Positions 26,606 to 50,241 of a stretch of DNA of 64,000 bases are shown here, in pieces. Source of the DNA: Buchnera aphidicola str. G002 (Myzus persicae). GTDB taxonomy: Bacteria; Pseudomonadota; Gammaproteobacteria; Enterobacterales; Enterobacteriaceae. The position numbers and the translations under genes are program-made. The stretch covers positions 372,001 through 436,000 of the forward strand of contig NZ_CP002701.1 in the NCBI RefSeq assembly GCF_000521565.1, read 5' to 3'. The stretch's first letter is position 1. Each line of letters begins with the position of its first letter. The notes beneath the pieces were generated by a model. It did no database searches and was not told the DNA's origin. It saw nothing but the letters and a program-made list of their open reading frames with translations.

Positions 26606-28708
26606 ATGAATTGTTTATTTGCAAGTACAAATTTTGGGACTGAAAATTTATTAAAAGAAGAACTCTTATATTTAGGAGCTAAAAATTTAAATATAAAAAA
26701 TGGAGGTATTTACTATGAAGCAAATGAGTTATTATTATATAAAAGTTTAATGTGGAGTCGCATTGCTTCTCGTATTTTTTTATGTATAAAACAATTTAAA
26801 ATAAAGAACAAAGAAGAACTATATTCTAATATCTATAATATAGATTGGGATGAAATCTTTTCTATAAATAAAACTTTTTCAATTAATTTTAAGGGAATTA
26901 ATCATTTTATTCGTAATAGTTTATTCGGATCTTTAATAATAAAAGATGCTATTGTTGATCAATTTAAAAGAAAATATCTTCTCCGTCCAAACATAGATCT
27001 TATAAATCCTGATATTCGAATCAGATCATTTTTATCACATGATAATATAATTCATATTATGTTAGATTTAAGTGGTTCATCATTACATAAAAGGGGATAT
27101 CGACAATTATCTAATTCCACTCCTATTAAAGAAAATTTAGGTGCAGCAATTATATTAAATTCAGGGTGGAATAAAAAAATGCCAATTATAGATCCTATGT
27201 GTGGCTCTGGAACATTATTAATAGAAGCTGCTATGGTATCTACTGATAGAGCACCTGGATTAAGAAGGGTGAAATGGGGATTTCAATCATGGAAAAAATA
27301 TAATAAAAGTCTATGGCTTAATGTTATTCAAGAAGCAGAAGAAAGATTTAAAATAGGACTCGAAAAATGTTTTAAAAATAATTTTATTGGATATGATTAT
27401 GATTCTAAAATAATAGAAAAAGCTAAAATAAACGCATCAAATGCAGGTTTATCAAAAACAATTAAATTTTTTACACAAAACTTAAATAATCTTAAAAATC
27501 TTTATGATGATAAAAAAATTGGAATATTGTTAACTAATCCTCCATATGGTGAAAGGCATCAAACTGAGAGTCAACTTGTAGGTTTATATATACAATTGGG
27601 TGTAGTATCAAAAAAATACTTTAAAAATTGGATATTGTCTATCTTTAGTTCATCAAAATTTTTGTTAAATTTTGTACAAATGAAATCAGATAAAGAGTAT
27701 TTTTTAAAGAATGGAGCGTTAAATTGTATTCAACAGAGTTTTAAAATTTACTCAAAAGAAGTGCATACGGAAAATAGTGAATATCAAAATAGATTAAAAA
27801 AAAATTTCAATAAATTTAAAAAATGGACAAATCAAGAAGGAATAGAATGTTTCCGTGTATATAATGCTGATTTACCAAATTACAATATTATAGTAGATGT
27901 TTATAATAAATGGCTAGTCATTCAAGAATACAAAGCTCCAAAACTAATCAACTCCAATAAAGCATATAAAAGATTATGTAATGCAATTTATTATACTAAA
28001 GAAATATTATCTATTGATATTAATAATATAGTATTAAAAATTAGACAAAAAAATAAAAATACAACACAATATAAAAGACTATATAACAGTAATAGTTTTA
28101 TGATAATTAAAGAATATCATGCAAAGTTTTTAGTGAATTTAATAGATTATTTAGATACCGGATTATTTTCAGATAAACGACTTATAAGAAAAATGTTAGG
28201 AACAATGGCGAGAGGAAAAGATTTCTTAAATTTATTTTCATATACTGGAACTGCTACTGTATATGCTGCACTAGGAAAAGCTAAAAGCACGACGAGTGTA
28301 GATATATCTAATACTTATATGAAATGGTCAATGCGTAATATGTCTATTAATAATTTAACAGATTATAATCATCATTTTATTCAAGAAGATTGTTTGAACT
28401 GGATAAAAAAAACAGATCATAAATTTGATCTTATATTTATTAATCCACCAACTTTTTCAAATTCTAAAAAAATGCAACAAGATTTTGATTTAAAAAGAGA
28501 TTACCTTATTTTGATGATAAATTTAAAAAGAATTTTACGGTACGATGGTAATATTATTTTCTCTAGTTCTACACGTAATTTTAATATTAATTTGAATTCT
28601 CTTAAGAAAATAAAATTACATGCACAAAATATTACAAAAAAAACACAAAGTAAGGATTTTTTAAAAAATTTTAATATTTACCATTCCTGGTTAATAAAAC
28701 ATTCATAA
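26606..28708 (+). CDS. rlmL: Bifunctional 23S rRNA methyltransferase RlmKL
   Basis: Methylates G2445 (N2) and G2069 (N7) of 23S rRNA. At 700 residues (E. coli 702) both halves remain: a THUMP domain (about 45-155), the RlmL methyltransferase with PIIDPMCGSGTLLIEAA (about 190-206) and LTNPPYGER, and the C-terminal RlmK methyltransferase with FLNLFSYTGTATVYAALG and LIFINPPTFSNS. It is followed after 23 bp by uup, the same order as in E. coli. No strong Shine-Dalgarno is visible before the ATG. Confidence 0.95.
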   Translation: MNCLFASTNFGTENLLKEELLYLGAKNLNIKNGGIYYEANELLLYKSLMWSRIASRIFLCIKQFKIKNKEELYSNIYNIDWDEIFSINKTFSINFKGINHFIRNSLFGSLIIKDAIVDQFKRKYLLRPNIDLINPDIRIRSFLSHDNIIHIMLDLSGSSLHKRGYRQLSNSTPIKENLGAAIILNSGWNKKMPIIDPMCGSGTLLIEAAMVSTDRAPGLRRVKWGFQSWKKYNKSLWLNVIQEAEERFKIGLEKCFKNNFIGYDYDSKIIEKAKINASNAGLSKTIKFFTQNLNNLKNLYDDKKIGILLTNPPYGERHQTESQLVGLYIQLGVVSKKYFKNWILSIFSSSKFLLNFVQMKSDKEYFLKNGALNCIQQSFKIYSKEVHTENSEYQNRLKKNFNKFKKWTNQEGIECFRVYNADLPNYNIIVDVYNKWLVIQEYKAPKLINSNKAYKRLCNAIYYTKEILSIDINNIVLKIRQKNKNTTQYKRLYNSNSFMIIKEYHAKFLVNLIDYLDTGLFSDKRLIRKMLGTMARGKDFLNLFSYTGTATVYAALGKAKSTTSVDISNTYMKWSMRNMSINNLTDYNHHFIQEDCLNWIKKTDHKFDLIFINPPTFSNSKKMQQDFDLKRDYLILMINLKRILRYDGNIIFSSSTRNFNINLNSLKKIKLHAQNITKKTQSKDFLKNFNIYHSWLIKHS

Positions 28709-45763: not shown

Positions 45764-48409
45764 TTATAATATTCTTTTAACTTCTTTTACTTCGAAAACT
45801 TCTATGATATCTTTGATGCGTATATCGTTATAATTTTTTATACCAATACCACATTCTAATCCATTACGTATTTCATTAACATCTTCTTTAAAACGACGTA
45901 ACGATTCTAATTCACCTTCATGTATCACTATATTATCTCTTAATATATGAATTGGATTAGTACGTTTAACTATCCCTTCAATAACCATGCAACCTGCAAT
46001 CAAGCCAAATTTAGGAGATTTAAAAGTATTTCTAACTTCAGCTAATCCAATAATATTTTGTTTATATTCAGGTGATAAAAGACCAGTCATAGCAGATTTA
46101 ACTTCATTAATTAAATCATAAATAACTGAATAATAACGAAGATCTAAATGTTCTGAATTAATTATTTTTTTGGCAGCAGCATCTGCTCTAACATTAAATC
46201 CTAAAATAATAGCATTTGAAGCCATAGCTAAAGAAGCATCTGTTTCTGTAATACCACCGATACCTAATCCTATTATTTTTACTTTTACTTCATTTGTAGA
46301 AAGCTTTAATAAGGCTCCAGAAATTGCTTCTAAAGAACCTTGTACATCAGATTTAAGAATGATCTTTAATTCAGAAAAATTATTTTTACTCATACTATCA
46401 AACATATTTTCTAAATTTATTTTATTTTCATTTAATAACTTTCTTTCACGAAATTTTTCTTTTCTATAAGAAGCTACTTCTTTTGCTTTTTTTTCATCAC
46501 GGACTACAGTAACGTTATCTCCTGAAAAAGGAACTTTAGATAGTCCTAAAACTTCTACTGGCATAGCAGGTCCTGCATACAAGACTTCCTTTCCTGTTTG
46601 ATCACGTAAAGCTTTAATACGACCATATTCAAAGCCACATAGTATTATATCTCCTTTTTTTAAAGTACCTTTTTGAATTAATACAGTAGCTATTGGTCCA
46701 CGACCCTTATCTAAAAATGATTCAATAACGACACCTTCTGCCATACCAGTAGGTACTGCTTTTAATTCTAATATTTCTGCTTGAAGTAAAATTGCATTTA
46801 ATAGTTGATCTACACCGTTGCCTGTTTTTGCAGAAACAGATACAAATATATTTTCACCACCCCATTCTTCTGAAAGAATATTATATTTCATTAAATCATT
46901 TTTTACTTTATCAATATCAGAATCTATTTTATCAATTTTATTAATAGCTACAATTACTGGAACATTAGCTTCTTTTGCATGTTGAATCGCTTCAATCGTT
47001 TGAGGCATAACACCATCATCTGCTGCTATAACCAAAACAACAATATCAGTTATTTTTACTCCACGAGATCTCATGGCAGTAAAAGCTGAATGACCTGGTG
47101 TATCTAAAAAAGTAATAGAACCTAAATCAGTTTTCACATGATATGCACCAATATTCTGTGTAATTCCTCCAGCTTCATGAAAAGCGGTTTTTGTTGAACG
47201 AATATAATCTAATAATGATGTTTTACCATGATCAACATGTCCCATTATAGTAACTACTGGAGATCTTACAGTAAAAATATTATTACCTATATCACGATCT
47301 TGCATAATTATTTCTTCTAATTCATTTTCTCTATGCAAAGTAACTTTATGACCCATTTCTTCTGCAATTAACTGAGCTGTATCCTGATCTAAGATATGAT
47401 TAATAGTACCTATAACACCAATTTTCATCATAGTTTTAATCACTTCAGAACTTTTTATAGCCATTTTATTAGAAAGATCAGATACAGAAATAGTTCCATT
47501 AATTATAATATCTCTATTAACAATAGAATCGGGTTTTTTAAAAACTTGTTGCAATAAAATAGGCTTGTTTTTTTGTTTCAGATTTTTTTTCTGACGATTG
47601 GAAATACGTATTTCTTCTTTATTATTTTTACTATTATAAAAATTTTTATTACTTTTTTTCTGACGATGATTTTTTAAAACTCGGTTATGATTTCTTTTAT
47701 CAGTTTCGATATCTCTATCATTATCATCTTCAGCTTGTCGAGCATGTAAAAACGTTGTTAAATGATAATCTTTTTTTTCTTCTTTATAAGATTTTCTAGT
47801 ATCTATATTTTCTTTTGTTCTTTTTTTTTCATTAATATCAATAAAATTTTTTTCTATATTTTTTTTTATTTTTTTGTCTTTTTCTTCTTTATTTAAGATT
47901 TTAGAATTTTTTACTTTATTAATTTTTTTAAAGTTAAAAAATTCAACATTTGTTTTATTAAAATCTAATTTTTCAATATTTTTTTTACGTTTTTTGTCTA
48001 TAGTATTTTTTTCTATAGACGTATTTATATTATTTTTTTGTAAATTTTTTAAAGAATACTCTTGTTTTATTAGAATTTTATTAGTACTTGTTATATTCGA
48101 TGAAAAGTCAGCTTCAAATTTATTATTTTTTATGTAAGTTCTTTTCTTACGTACTTCTACTTGTATAGATTTATTTTTTCCACTAGTAGTAGATACGCTT
48201 AAAGTACTGCGTGTTTTCCTTTGTAAAATTAAAGTATCTAAAGAAGATTTTTTTTTAGATTCTAAATGTTTTAATAAATTATTTTTTTCAATTAAATTAA
48301 TTTGATCCTTTTCATTTTTTACTATACCGATATCAGATAATTCTTTTATCAACTCTTTGATTGATATTTTTATTTCATTAGATAAAAATTTTAAACTTAT
48401 ATCTGTCAT
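45764..48409 (-). CDS. infB: Translation initiation factor IF-2
   Basis: GTPase that brings initiator tRNA to the ribosome. The 881 residues (E. coli 890) have an N-terminal subdomain (1-50), a long Lys/Asn/Glu-rich low-complexity linker (about 60-290) in place of the Ala/Glu-rich E. coli linker, then the G domain with G1 [17 protein letters not shown] (near 390), [15 protein letters not shown] and NKIDK. Domains with [19 protein letters not shown] and the fMet-tRNA-binding C2 region follow. It begins 17 bp after the restored nusA stop codon. The linker change is typical of AT-driven drift where only flexibility matters. Confidence 0.97.
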
Positions 48410-48426
48410 ACCTTTTCTTCCTATTA

Positions 48427-49913
48427 TTAAACTTTACCACCGAACCAACAGATATTACGAGCAGTCATAATTAATAAACCAGCTTGTTCAGAATTGAGAC
48501 TCTTAATATCAGTTAAATCATCTATTCCTTGATCAGCTAATTCTGCTAAAGTAAATATATTTTTTTCAGCTAATTGCAAAGCCAATACTGTATTCATACC
48601 ATTTATATTTAGTAAATCTTTTTCTGTTTTTTTATCTTTAATTCTATTTTTTTTTCTGATTCTATGATACGTAATTTATTTTTTGCACCTTCACGTACTA
48701 TTTTTGCTTCTTCTTTACTTAAATCATTAATTTCTAATAATTCATTAAATGGTATATAAGCTAATTCTTCAAGAGAAGAAAAACCTTCTTTTACTAAAAT
48801 TTTTATAATTTTTTCGCTAATATTTAAATTTTTTTTAAAAGTATTAAAAGCTGCATGAGCTTCTTCTTGATGTTTAGAATGCAGATCTTCTGTAGTCATG
48901 ACATTTAATTCCCAACCACTGATTTGAGAAGCCAAACGAACGTTCTGCCCATTTCGACCGATAGCTTGTGCTAAATTTCCGGATTCTACAGCTATATCCA
49001 TAGTGTGATGATCTTCATCTACTACAATAGAAGCTACATCTGCTGGAGCCATTGCGTTAATAACAAACTGAGCAGGATTATCATCCCATAAAATAATATC
49101 AATTCGTTCACCACATAATTCGCTTGATACTGCTTGTACACGAGCTCCTCTCATTCCTACACATGCACCTACTGGATCAATGCGCTTATCATTAGTTTTT
49201 ACTGCAATTTTTGCTCGAGAACCTGGATCACGGGCAGCTGCTTTAATTTCAATGACTTCTTCTCCAATTTCAGGAACTTCTATCCTGAATAACTCAATTA
49301 ACATTTCTGTTTTAGAGCGACTAATAAATAACTGAGCGCCACGAGATTCAGGATATACACCGTATAGAATCCCGCGAATACGATCACCAGGACGAAAGTT
49401 TTCTCTCGGCAACATACCTTCACGTAAAATTAATGCTTCAGCATTATTGCCTAAATCTAAAGTTAAATTATCTCGATGAATTTTCTTAACTATGCCAGTA
49501 ATTATCTGACCAATATATTTTCGAAATTGATTAACTAACATTGCTCTTTCTGCTTCTCGTACTTTTTGTACAATTACTTGTTTTGCAGTTTGAGTAGTTA
49601 TTCTATCAAAATTTACAGATTCTATCTGATCTTCTATATAATCGTTAATCTGAACTTTTTCACCTTCAAAACAAGCTGCTTCTAAAGTAATTTCTCTAGT
49701 GGGTTGAGTCACTGTATCCACTACCATCCAACGTCTAAAAGTAGTAAAATTTCCAGTTTTTCGATTTATACTAACTCTAATATCAATTTCTTGTTCATGT
49801 TTTTTCTTAGTGGCTGTTGCTAAGGCGATTTCTAATGCTTCAAAAATTTTTTCACGAGGGAGAGACTTTTCATTAGAAACAGCTTCTACGACAGCTAAGA
49901 TTTCTTTATTCAT
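48427..49913 (-). CDS. nusA: Transcription factor NusA, frame broken at an A9 tract
   Basis: Elongation, pausing and antitermination factor that binds RNA polymerase. The true start is the ATG at 49913 ([20 protein letters not shown]), not the in-frame ATG at 49979. The N-terminal domain, S1, KH1, KH2 and AR1 read in one frame to a stop at 48609 (434 residues). The AR2 domain continues in the next frame to 48427, ending NICWFGGKV like E. coli NICWFGDEA. The break coincides with nine A on the coding strand (48647-48655). One extra A gives 1488 bases and exactly 495 residues, the E. coli length. Transcript slippage would restore it; otherwise AR2 is lost. Confidence 0.93.
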
Positions 49914-50094: not shown

Positions 50095-50158
50095 AGGCAA
50101 TATTACCCTATATATATAGTAATGATGATAAATCTAAATCTTTTAAATAAAAAAATAG

Positions 50159-50241
50159 TACCGAGGATGGGAATTGAACCCATATGCCTATTTGGCACTA
50201 TCCCCTCAAGATAGCGTGTCTACCAGTTTCACCACCTCGGT
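50159..50241 (-). tRNA. leuU: tRNA-Leu (anticodon GAG)
   Basis: Reads CUC and CUU leucine codons. The 83-base sequence folds as a class II tRNA. The acceptor stem is ACCGAGG with CCTCGGT, the D arm has GGTGAAACTGGTAGAC, the anticodon arm has CTATC-TTGAGGG-GATAG with anticodon GAG, a long variable arm follows, and the T arm contains GGTTCAATTCC. Close similarity and position after secG match E. coli leuU. The 3' CCA is not encoded: after the discriminator A the DNA reads CTA, so CCA must be added enzymatically. The E. coli neighbours metY and rimP are absent. Confidence 0.95.

Follow-up and report, generated by a model that had tools for sequence, protein, structure and literature searches.

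The nusA reading frame of Buchnera aphidicola str. G002 is split at an A9 tract between the AR1 and AR2 repeats

Poly(A)-broken genes in endosymbionts and the nusA locus

Genes broken by a single base in a poly(A) run, with an intact reading frame downstream of the break, have been described in AT-rich insect symbionts (the cases of Tamas 2008 and Wernegreen 2010); mixed transcripts are reported for these genes, and some of the breaks are said to be shared between species (PMC5009743, PMC3017870). In Thermus thermophilus dnaX a run of nine leads to two protein lengths from one gene, the longer product being read in a single zero frame and the ratio of the two having been measured at about 1:1 (PMC5009743). 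For strain G002 itself, Jiang et al. 2013 reported a chromosome of 643,517 bases and a pLeu of 7,799 bases, 651,316 bases altogether. The commonest curation issue that they describe is gene-splitting poly(A) indels, for which the authors kept the tract lengths as they were and merged the gene models (PMC3890641).

The nusA gene of strain G002 is similar to the insect symbiont cases in all three structural respects (single-base poly(A) break, AT-rich host genome, intact downstream frame). On the other hand, it is known from sequence alone, and the break is present in none of 35 relatives. With Thermus dnaX it shares the run of nine and the two protein lengths, but not the reading of the longer product in one frame. 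The closest likeness is to the genes of the same genome that poly(A) indels truncate or split with both sides conserved (PMC3890641). Poly(A)-split genes in the G002 genome are already published, and the nusA break is a further example. We found no occurrence of nusA in the main text of Jiang et al. (PMC3890641; the supplements lay outside the search) and no earlier report of the break in the listed titles and abstract openings of the literature on Buchnera slippage, frameshifts and nusA, supplements again lying outside. These sources do support the precedent, invoked in a first-pass annotation of this DNA, of slippage in poly(A)-broken endosymbiont genes.

The window, that is, the whole stretch of 64,000 nucleotides that was analysed, carries nusA on the minus strand from 49913 to 48427, with the reading frame split at an A9 tract in the AR1-AR2 linker. 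The features of the locus are as follows.

48609..49913, minus strand: nusA zero frame, 434 aa, domains NTD-S1-KH1-KH2-AR1, ATG at 49913, TAA at 48611-48609
48647..48655, minus strand: A9 tract, read in the zero frame as GAA AAA AAA ATA and holding an in-phase A AAA AAA heptamer
48627..48633, minus strand: A7 tract with a second in-phase A AAA AAA, ahead of the zero-frame stop
48427..48646, minus strand: adjacent frame with the remaining linker, an intact AR2 (the second NusA C-terminal repeat) and TAA at 48429-48427
48410..48608, minus strand: 199 nt between the zero-frame stop and infB, untranslated if the zero-frame stop is used
45764..48409, minus strand: infB (IF2), the next gene downstream of nusA

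The zero-frame product matched the TIGR01953 core with 413.1 bits (cut-off 253.4) and the NCBIfam model of the NusA C-terminal repeat, TIGR01954 (cut-off 48.15 bits), only once, at residues 365-414 with 58.9 bits; its last 12 residues, 423-434, lie outside the NusA family frame. The 56-aa AR2 piece of the adjacent frame gave 52.5 bits with TIGR01954, while an intact Buchnera NusA (P0004) gave two matches to this model. The gene is then of the gammaproteobacterial type, with the TIGR01953 core and two TIGR01954 repeats, the second of which is found only in the adjacent frame. It also has the form of a poly(A)-frameshifted endosymbiont gene, with a single frame break at a homopolymer and the rest of nusA intact. 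A -1 shift at the A7 tract would likewise lead into the AR2 frame.

The first-pass annotation had placed the zero-frame stop at 48609 and the A9 tract at 48647-48655, and had read on in the adjacent frame to 48427 through a complete AR2 ending in NICWFGGKV, with the restored stop 17 bp ahead of the infB ATG at 48409; all of this was confirmed on the minus strand. A tRNA-Leu gene (GAG, 50158-50241), the sole one detected by ARAGORN in the window, lies directly upstream of nusA.

The break among Buchnera genomes and the constraint on AR2

We searched 36 genomes of the genus, one of them the window's own, and in all 35 others NusA is unbroken with a length of 495-500 aa, which makes the indel in the A-rich linker lineage-specific. 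Comparison of the tract in related strains had been proposed in the first-pass annotation as a check; in the species-level genomes compared here the frameshift is shared by 0/35, so that it is not maintained across these species. The codon position before the A run is GAT in 24 of the 35 relatives, and in two of them (G003 and G007) the junction reads GAT+A8+T. Therefore, loss of the T alone would also yield A9. The claim that one extra A restores the gene holds as a repair of the frame but not as the sole history of the tract. An alternative route to A9 would be a change of T to A, giving A10, followed by loss of one A. The linker is a place where such runs are frequent: in the 36 genomes, runs of at least eight A occur at 13.9 per kb in nt 1251-1300, a stretch picked after the break had been seen. 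Before this stretch, in nt 1-1250, their density is 0.8 per kb, and beyond it 1.0 per kb.

The sequence of AR2 does not look decayed. On the window (G000) branch we counted about 5 nonsynonymous changes in the AR2 core, compared to about 57 expected without constraint. For nusA upstream of the break, dS on this branch was about 0.385 and dN about 0.0145. The dN of AR2 was higher, about 0.034, and AR2 was also the faster part in many other pairs, but not in the pair G009-G023. All these values come from rough Nei-Gojobori counts in 9 of the 36 genomes, the branch values being obtained by arithmetic on rounded values from G009 and G023. At 4 of its 62 columns the window AR2 core has a residue other than the most frequent one. 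At one of them, column 24, E has changed to A at a residue that is invariant in all 35 relatives; private changes of an otherwise invariant AR2 residue were seen in 4 of the 36 genomes, the window and three others. Signs of AR2 relaxation in the window, as judged from these substitutions, are weak.

With these counts, old decay of AR2 could be rejected, and the earlier argument against it from the conserved AR2 reading was borne out. By a Poisson bound, constraint on AR2 may have been lacking for at most about 10-15% of the Myzus branch. The AR2 frame was constrained over most of the branch, and a break within its last 10-15% would fit too. Any two strains of Myzus persicae Buchnera are reported to be separated by no more than 203 SNPs over 643 kb (PMC3890641), so that a break could be species-wide and still young on the scale of the branch. 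As read from sequence, the conservation of AR2 agrees equally well with rescue and with a recent event, and is thus no proof of rescue. The proposal that full-length and AR2-less NusA are both produced was not established; AR2 conservation does not tell rescue from a recent event. The same warning applies to similar cases, where a conserved downstream frame by itself does not prove rescue.

NusA without AR2 and the favoured explanation

NusA-AR2 is described as binding KH1 and thereby blocking RNA binding, and as being freed by alpha-CTD, NusG, SuhB or lambda Q (PMC7171158). In E. coli, the fragment comprising AR1 and AR2 is reported to be non-essential and deletable (PMC12297416). The contacts with IF2 have been modelled with KH2 and AR1, both of which the short NusA retains.

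To see how often AR2 is present in the family, we started from a survey of 295 genomes, a selection from a larger group, in which 294 had a NusA match, and took its subset of 79 genomes of at most 900 kb, with the window's genus excluded, of which 78 had a match. A frame long enough to include AR2 was present in 61 of these 78 small-genome symbionts and absent in 17. Given its presence in all 35 genus relatives as well, AR2 looks selected in most lineages. In 11 of the 17 AR2-less loci the frames were shorter than 460 codons and had no internal stops; seven of the 11 had 414-453 codons. With tblastn at E values up to 0.5, AR2 was found in 0/17 of these loci; one of them (L162) has a masked N run after nusA, so that absence of AR2 is not fully testable there. 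An AR1 query matched 5/17. An infB-like start follows the nusA stop after 106-171 nt in 4/17, the corresponding distance in the window being 199 nt; in a fifth locus, L161, a start about 300 nt beyond the nusA stop is suggested by the match to infB.

Loss of AR2 is a path followed in several symbiont genera, and the window nusA would be its first step. The AR2-less NusA of other reduced-genome symbionts, with seven open frames of 414-453 codons, five of these seven carrying an AR1-like repeat, is like that of the window; in those genomes AR2 is undetectable, whereas the window still has an intact AR2 in the adjacent frame. We also observed that most of the 17 loci (L161-L177) lack a detected AR1 as well. 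In L175-L177 the first nusA stop is a TGA at a position where the window has Trp, and TGA is probably read as Trp there.

The explanation that we favour, tentatively, is a recent base loss specific to this lineage, with the short NusA tolerated and a minor full-length share supplied by slippage. As the comparison with relatives shows, the lineage of this strain has lost a single base of nusA in the A-rich linker between AR1 and AR2. The predominant product would most likely be the 434-residue NusA with NTD, S1, KH1, KH2 and AR1 and without AR2. This short protein probably functions well enough, because AR2 appears to be a dispensable autoinhibition and docking domain, as judged from the E. coli report and from the symbionts that lack it. 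A minor share of full-length NusA would probably come from transcripts into which RNA polymerase has put an extra A at the A9 tract. The break would be either recent relative to the species branch or under weak selection, which would explain why AR2 has not decayed yet. Rescue of nusA by slippage is possible in this explanation and would not be needed.

If the break is real, a central transcription factor of a symbiont tolerates being without its regulatory domain, and the AR2 loss that is complete in other small genomes may begin with such a break. The nusA A9 tract also offers a clean case for measuring the contribution of slippage in vivo.

Other explanations of the break

The next explanation in order, possible but clearly less probable than recent base loss, is that the A9 tract is a homopolymer miscall or a variant private to the strain or sample, nusA of Myzus persicae Buchnera being otherwise intact. 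From Table 2 of PMC3890641 we derived 34.5 private indels on the G002 branch compared to 10.5 on the F009 branch, with 99 and 104 SNPs, respectively; these are four-taxon counts obtained by arithmetic on a pairwise table, and the binomial p of about 0.0003 is rough, as the counts were rounded. This roughly threefold excess of private indels at equal SNPs could be real or could be residual error (PMC3890641). Low read coverage and trouble with 454 sequencing are reported for poly(A)-rich regions, but the same paper describes a 454 assembly with Illumina correction, 375-fold coverage for G002 and Sanger checks of low-coverage regions (PMC3890641).

The surroundings of nusA speak against a miscall as well. 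The comparison with G009 covered 59 genes of the window, which contain 40 distinct coding A/T runs of 9-10 (41 rows, one run being shared by two overlapping genes), and nusA alone was split between frames. A generally frame-broken assembly was rejected: among the 59, 57 and 58 ORFs matched in G009, G023 and G003, respectively, nusA was the sole gene split. Coverage was at most 93% for 4, 3 and 7 ORFs, nusA being among them each time and the others matching in one frame and in one place. The ORFs that had no match numbered 3, 3 and 4, and in this comparison breaks near gene ends could be missed. An RlmL-like methyltransferase that appeared split in G003 (window 26606-28702) has masked N between its two ORFs, and we make no claim of a frameshift for it. 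Genome-wide, A10 runs were matched 72 times in the forward and 68 times in the reverse direction, each overlapping match being counted separately.

A search for nusA from the same species returned nothing above 91% identity among the best 120 protein database matches, a result made uninformative by the fact that 90% clusters can hide members. No nusA match was found in the plasmid records. The pLeu sequence (7,799 bases) is 99.8% identical to the pLeu plasmids known from Myzus persicae Buchnera. Five Myzus persicae records of pLeu were compared, and the indels among them all lay outside annotated genes, which counts against a miscall; two of these indels were private to G002. A separate observation on pLeu (L160, 2904-2931) is that in G002 the spacer separating leuA from the second repA runs, inside a short inverted repeat, in the opposite orientation to that of USDA, W106, F009 and BSU_Myz_2018.

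Somewhat less probable again, and in our judgement unlikely, is efficient rescue, in which slippage of RNA polymerase at the A9 tract is frequent enough to make a useful share of NusA full-length, and AR2 is still under selection after the frameshift. Besides the conservation of AR2 in the adjacent frame, the precedents are numerous. Corrected transcripts amount to 12-50% in aphid and ant endosymbionts (PMC5009743), with 30% as another figure cited beside this range (PMC3017870, PMC5009743); slippage at the nine T of Thermus dnaX gives about 50% full-length product (PMC5009743); and slippage at A10 is cited for Buchnera mur genes (PMC6260861). Frame-breaking indels were highly tolerated in a laboratory gene with an 8A repeat (PMC3812077). 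In Blochmannia vafer, eight genes including dnaX, dnaG and pth are reported as broken at poly(A) or poly(T) (PMC3017870), and in the G002 genome Jiang et al. report that all signs around poly(A) breaks were of purifying selection (PMC3890641).

Conversely, bacterial RNA polymerase is reported to be a relatively poor bypasser that needs at least seven T and more still for A (PMC6260861). Insertions in Buchnera transcription grow exponentially with the length of A/T runs up to 11 nt, and frame-restoring transcription errors are given by Traverse and Ochman as not detected in Buchnera (PMC5574713). The frameshift in nusA, moreover, is shared by none of the 35 relatives.

An elaboration that we regard as improbable places AR2 behind a run that only slippage can cross, as a living intermediate of AR2 loss. 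As NusA regulates polymerase pausing, the AR2-bearing share would then report on slippage and feed back on it.

Full-length NusA could also arise from a programmed -1 ribosomal frameshift at A AAA AAA, similar to that of dnaX, which we consider very improbable. The heptamer is in phase at both the A9 and the A7 tract, but every A9 holds such a heptamer in phase, so that its presence is trivial. The genome has a single tRNA-Lys gene, with anticodon UUU, among the 32 of 33 tRNA matches that could be typed (the untyped one was below the family cut-off), and in E. coli the sole tRNA-Lys is reported to render the dnaX site shift-prone (PMC5009743). On the other side, there is no stimulatory structure downstream (z of -0.63, 0.99 and -0.18), no Shine-Dalgarno-like stretch was seen by eye just upstream, and the site has no counterpart in any of the 35 relatives.

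The least probable explanation of all is a restart of translation at the in-frame ATG at 48597, 11 nt past the zero-frame stop, giving a 56-aa AR2 peptide that works in trans: the piece matches TIGR01954 across positions 1-50 of 50, but no ribosome-binding site was seen by eye at this ATG, and the match of the piece to Pfam HHH_5 begins at position 11 of 57, so that the piece may lack the beginning of the fold. As for AR2 being a separate gene elsewhere, a candidate that we rejected, the database proteins found with the AR2 piece were two short ones of 87-88 aa with 68% and 73% identity, encoded on contigs of 402 and at most 1331 bases, and one of them is labelled partial.
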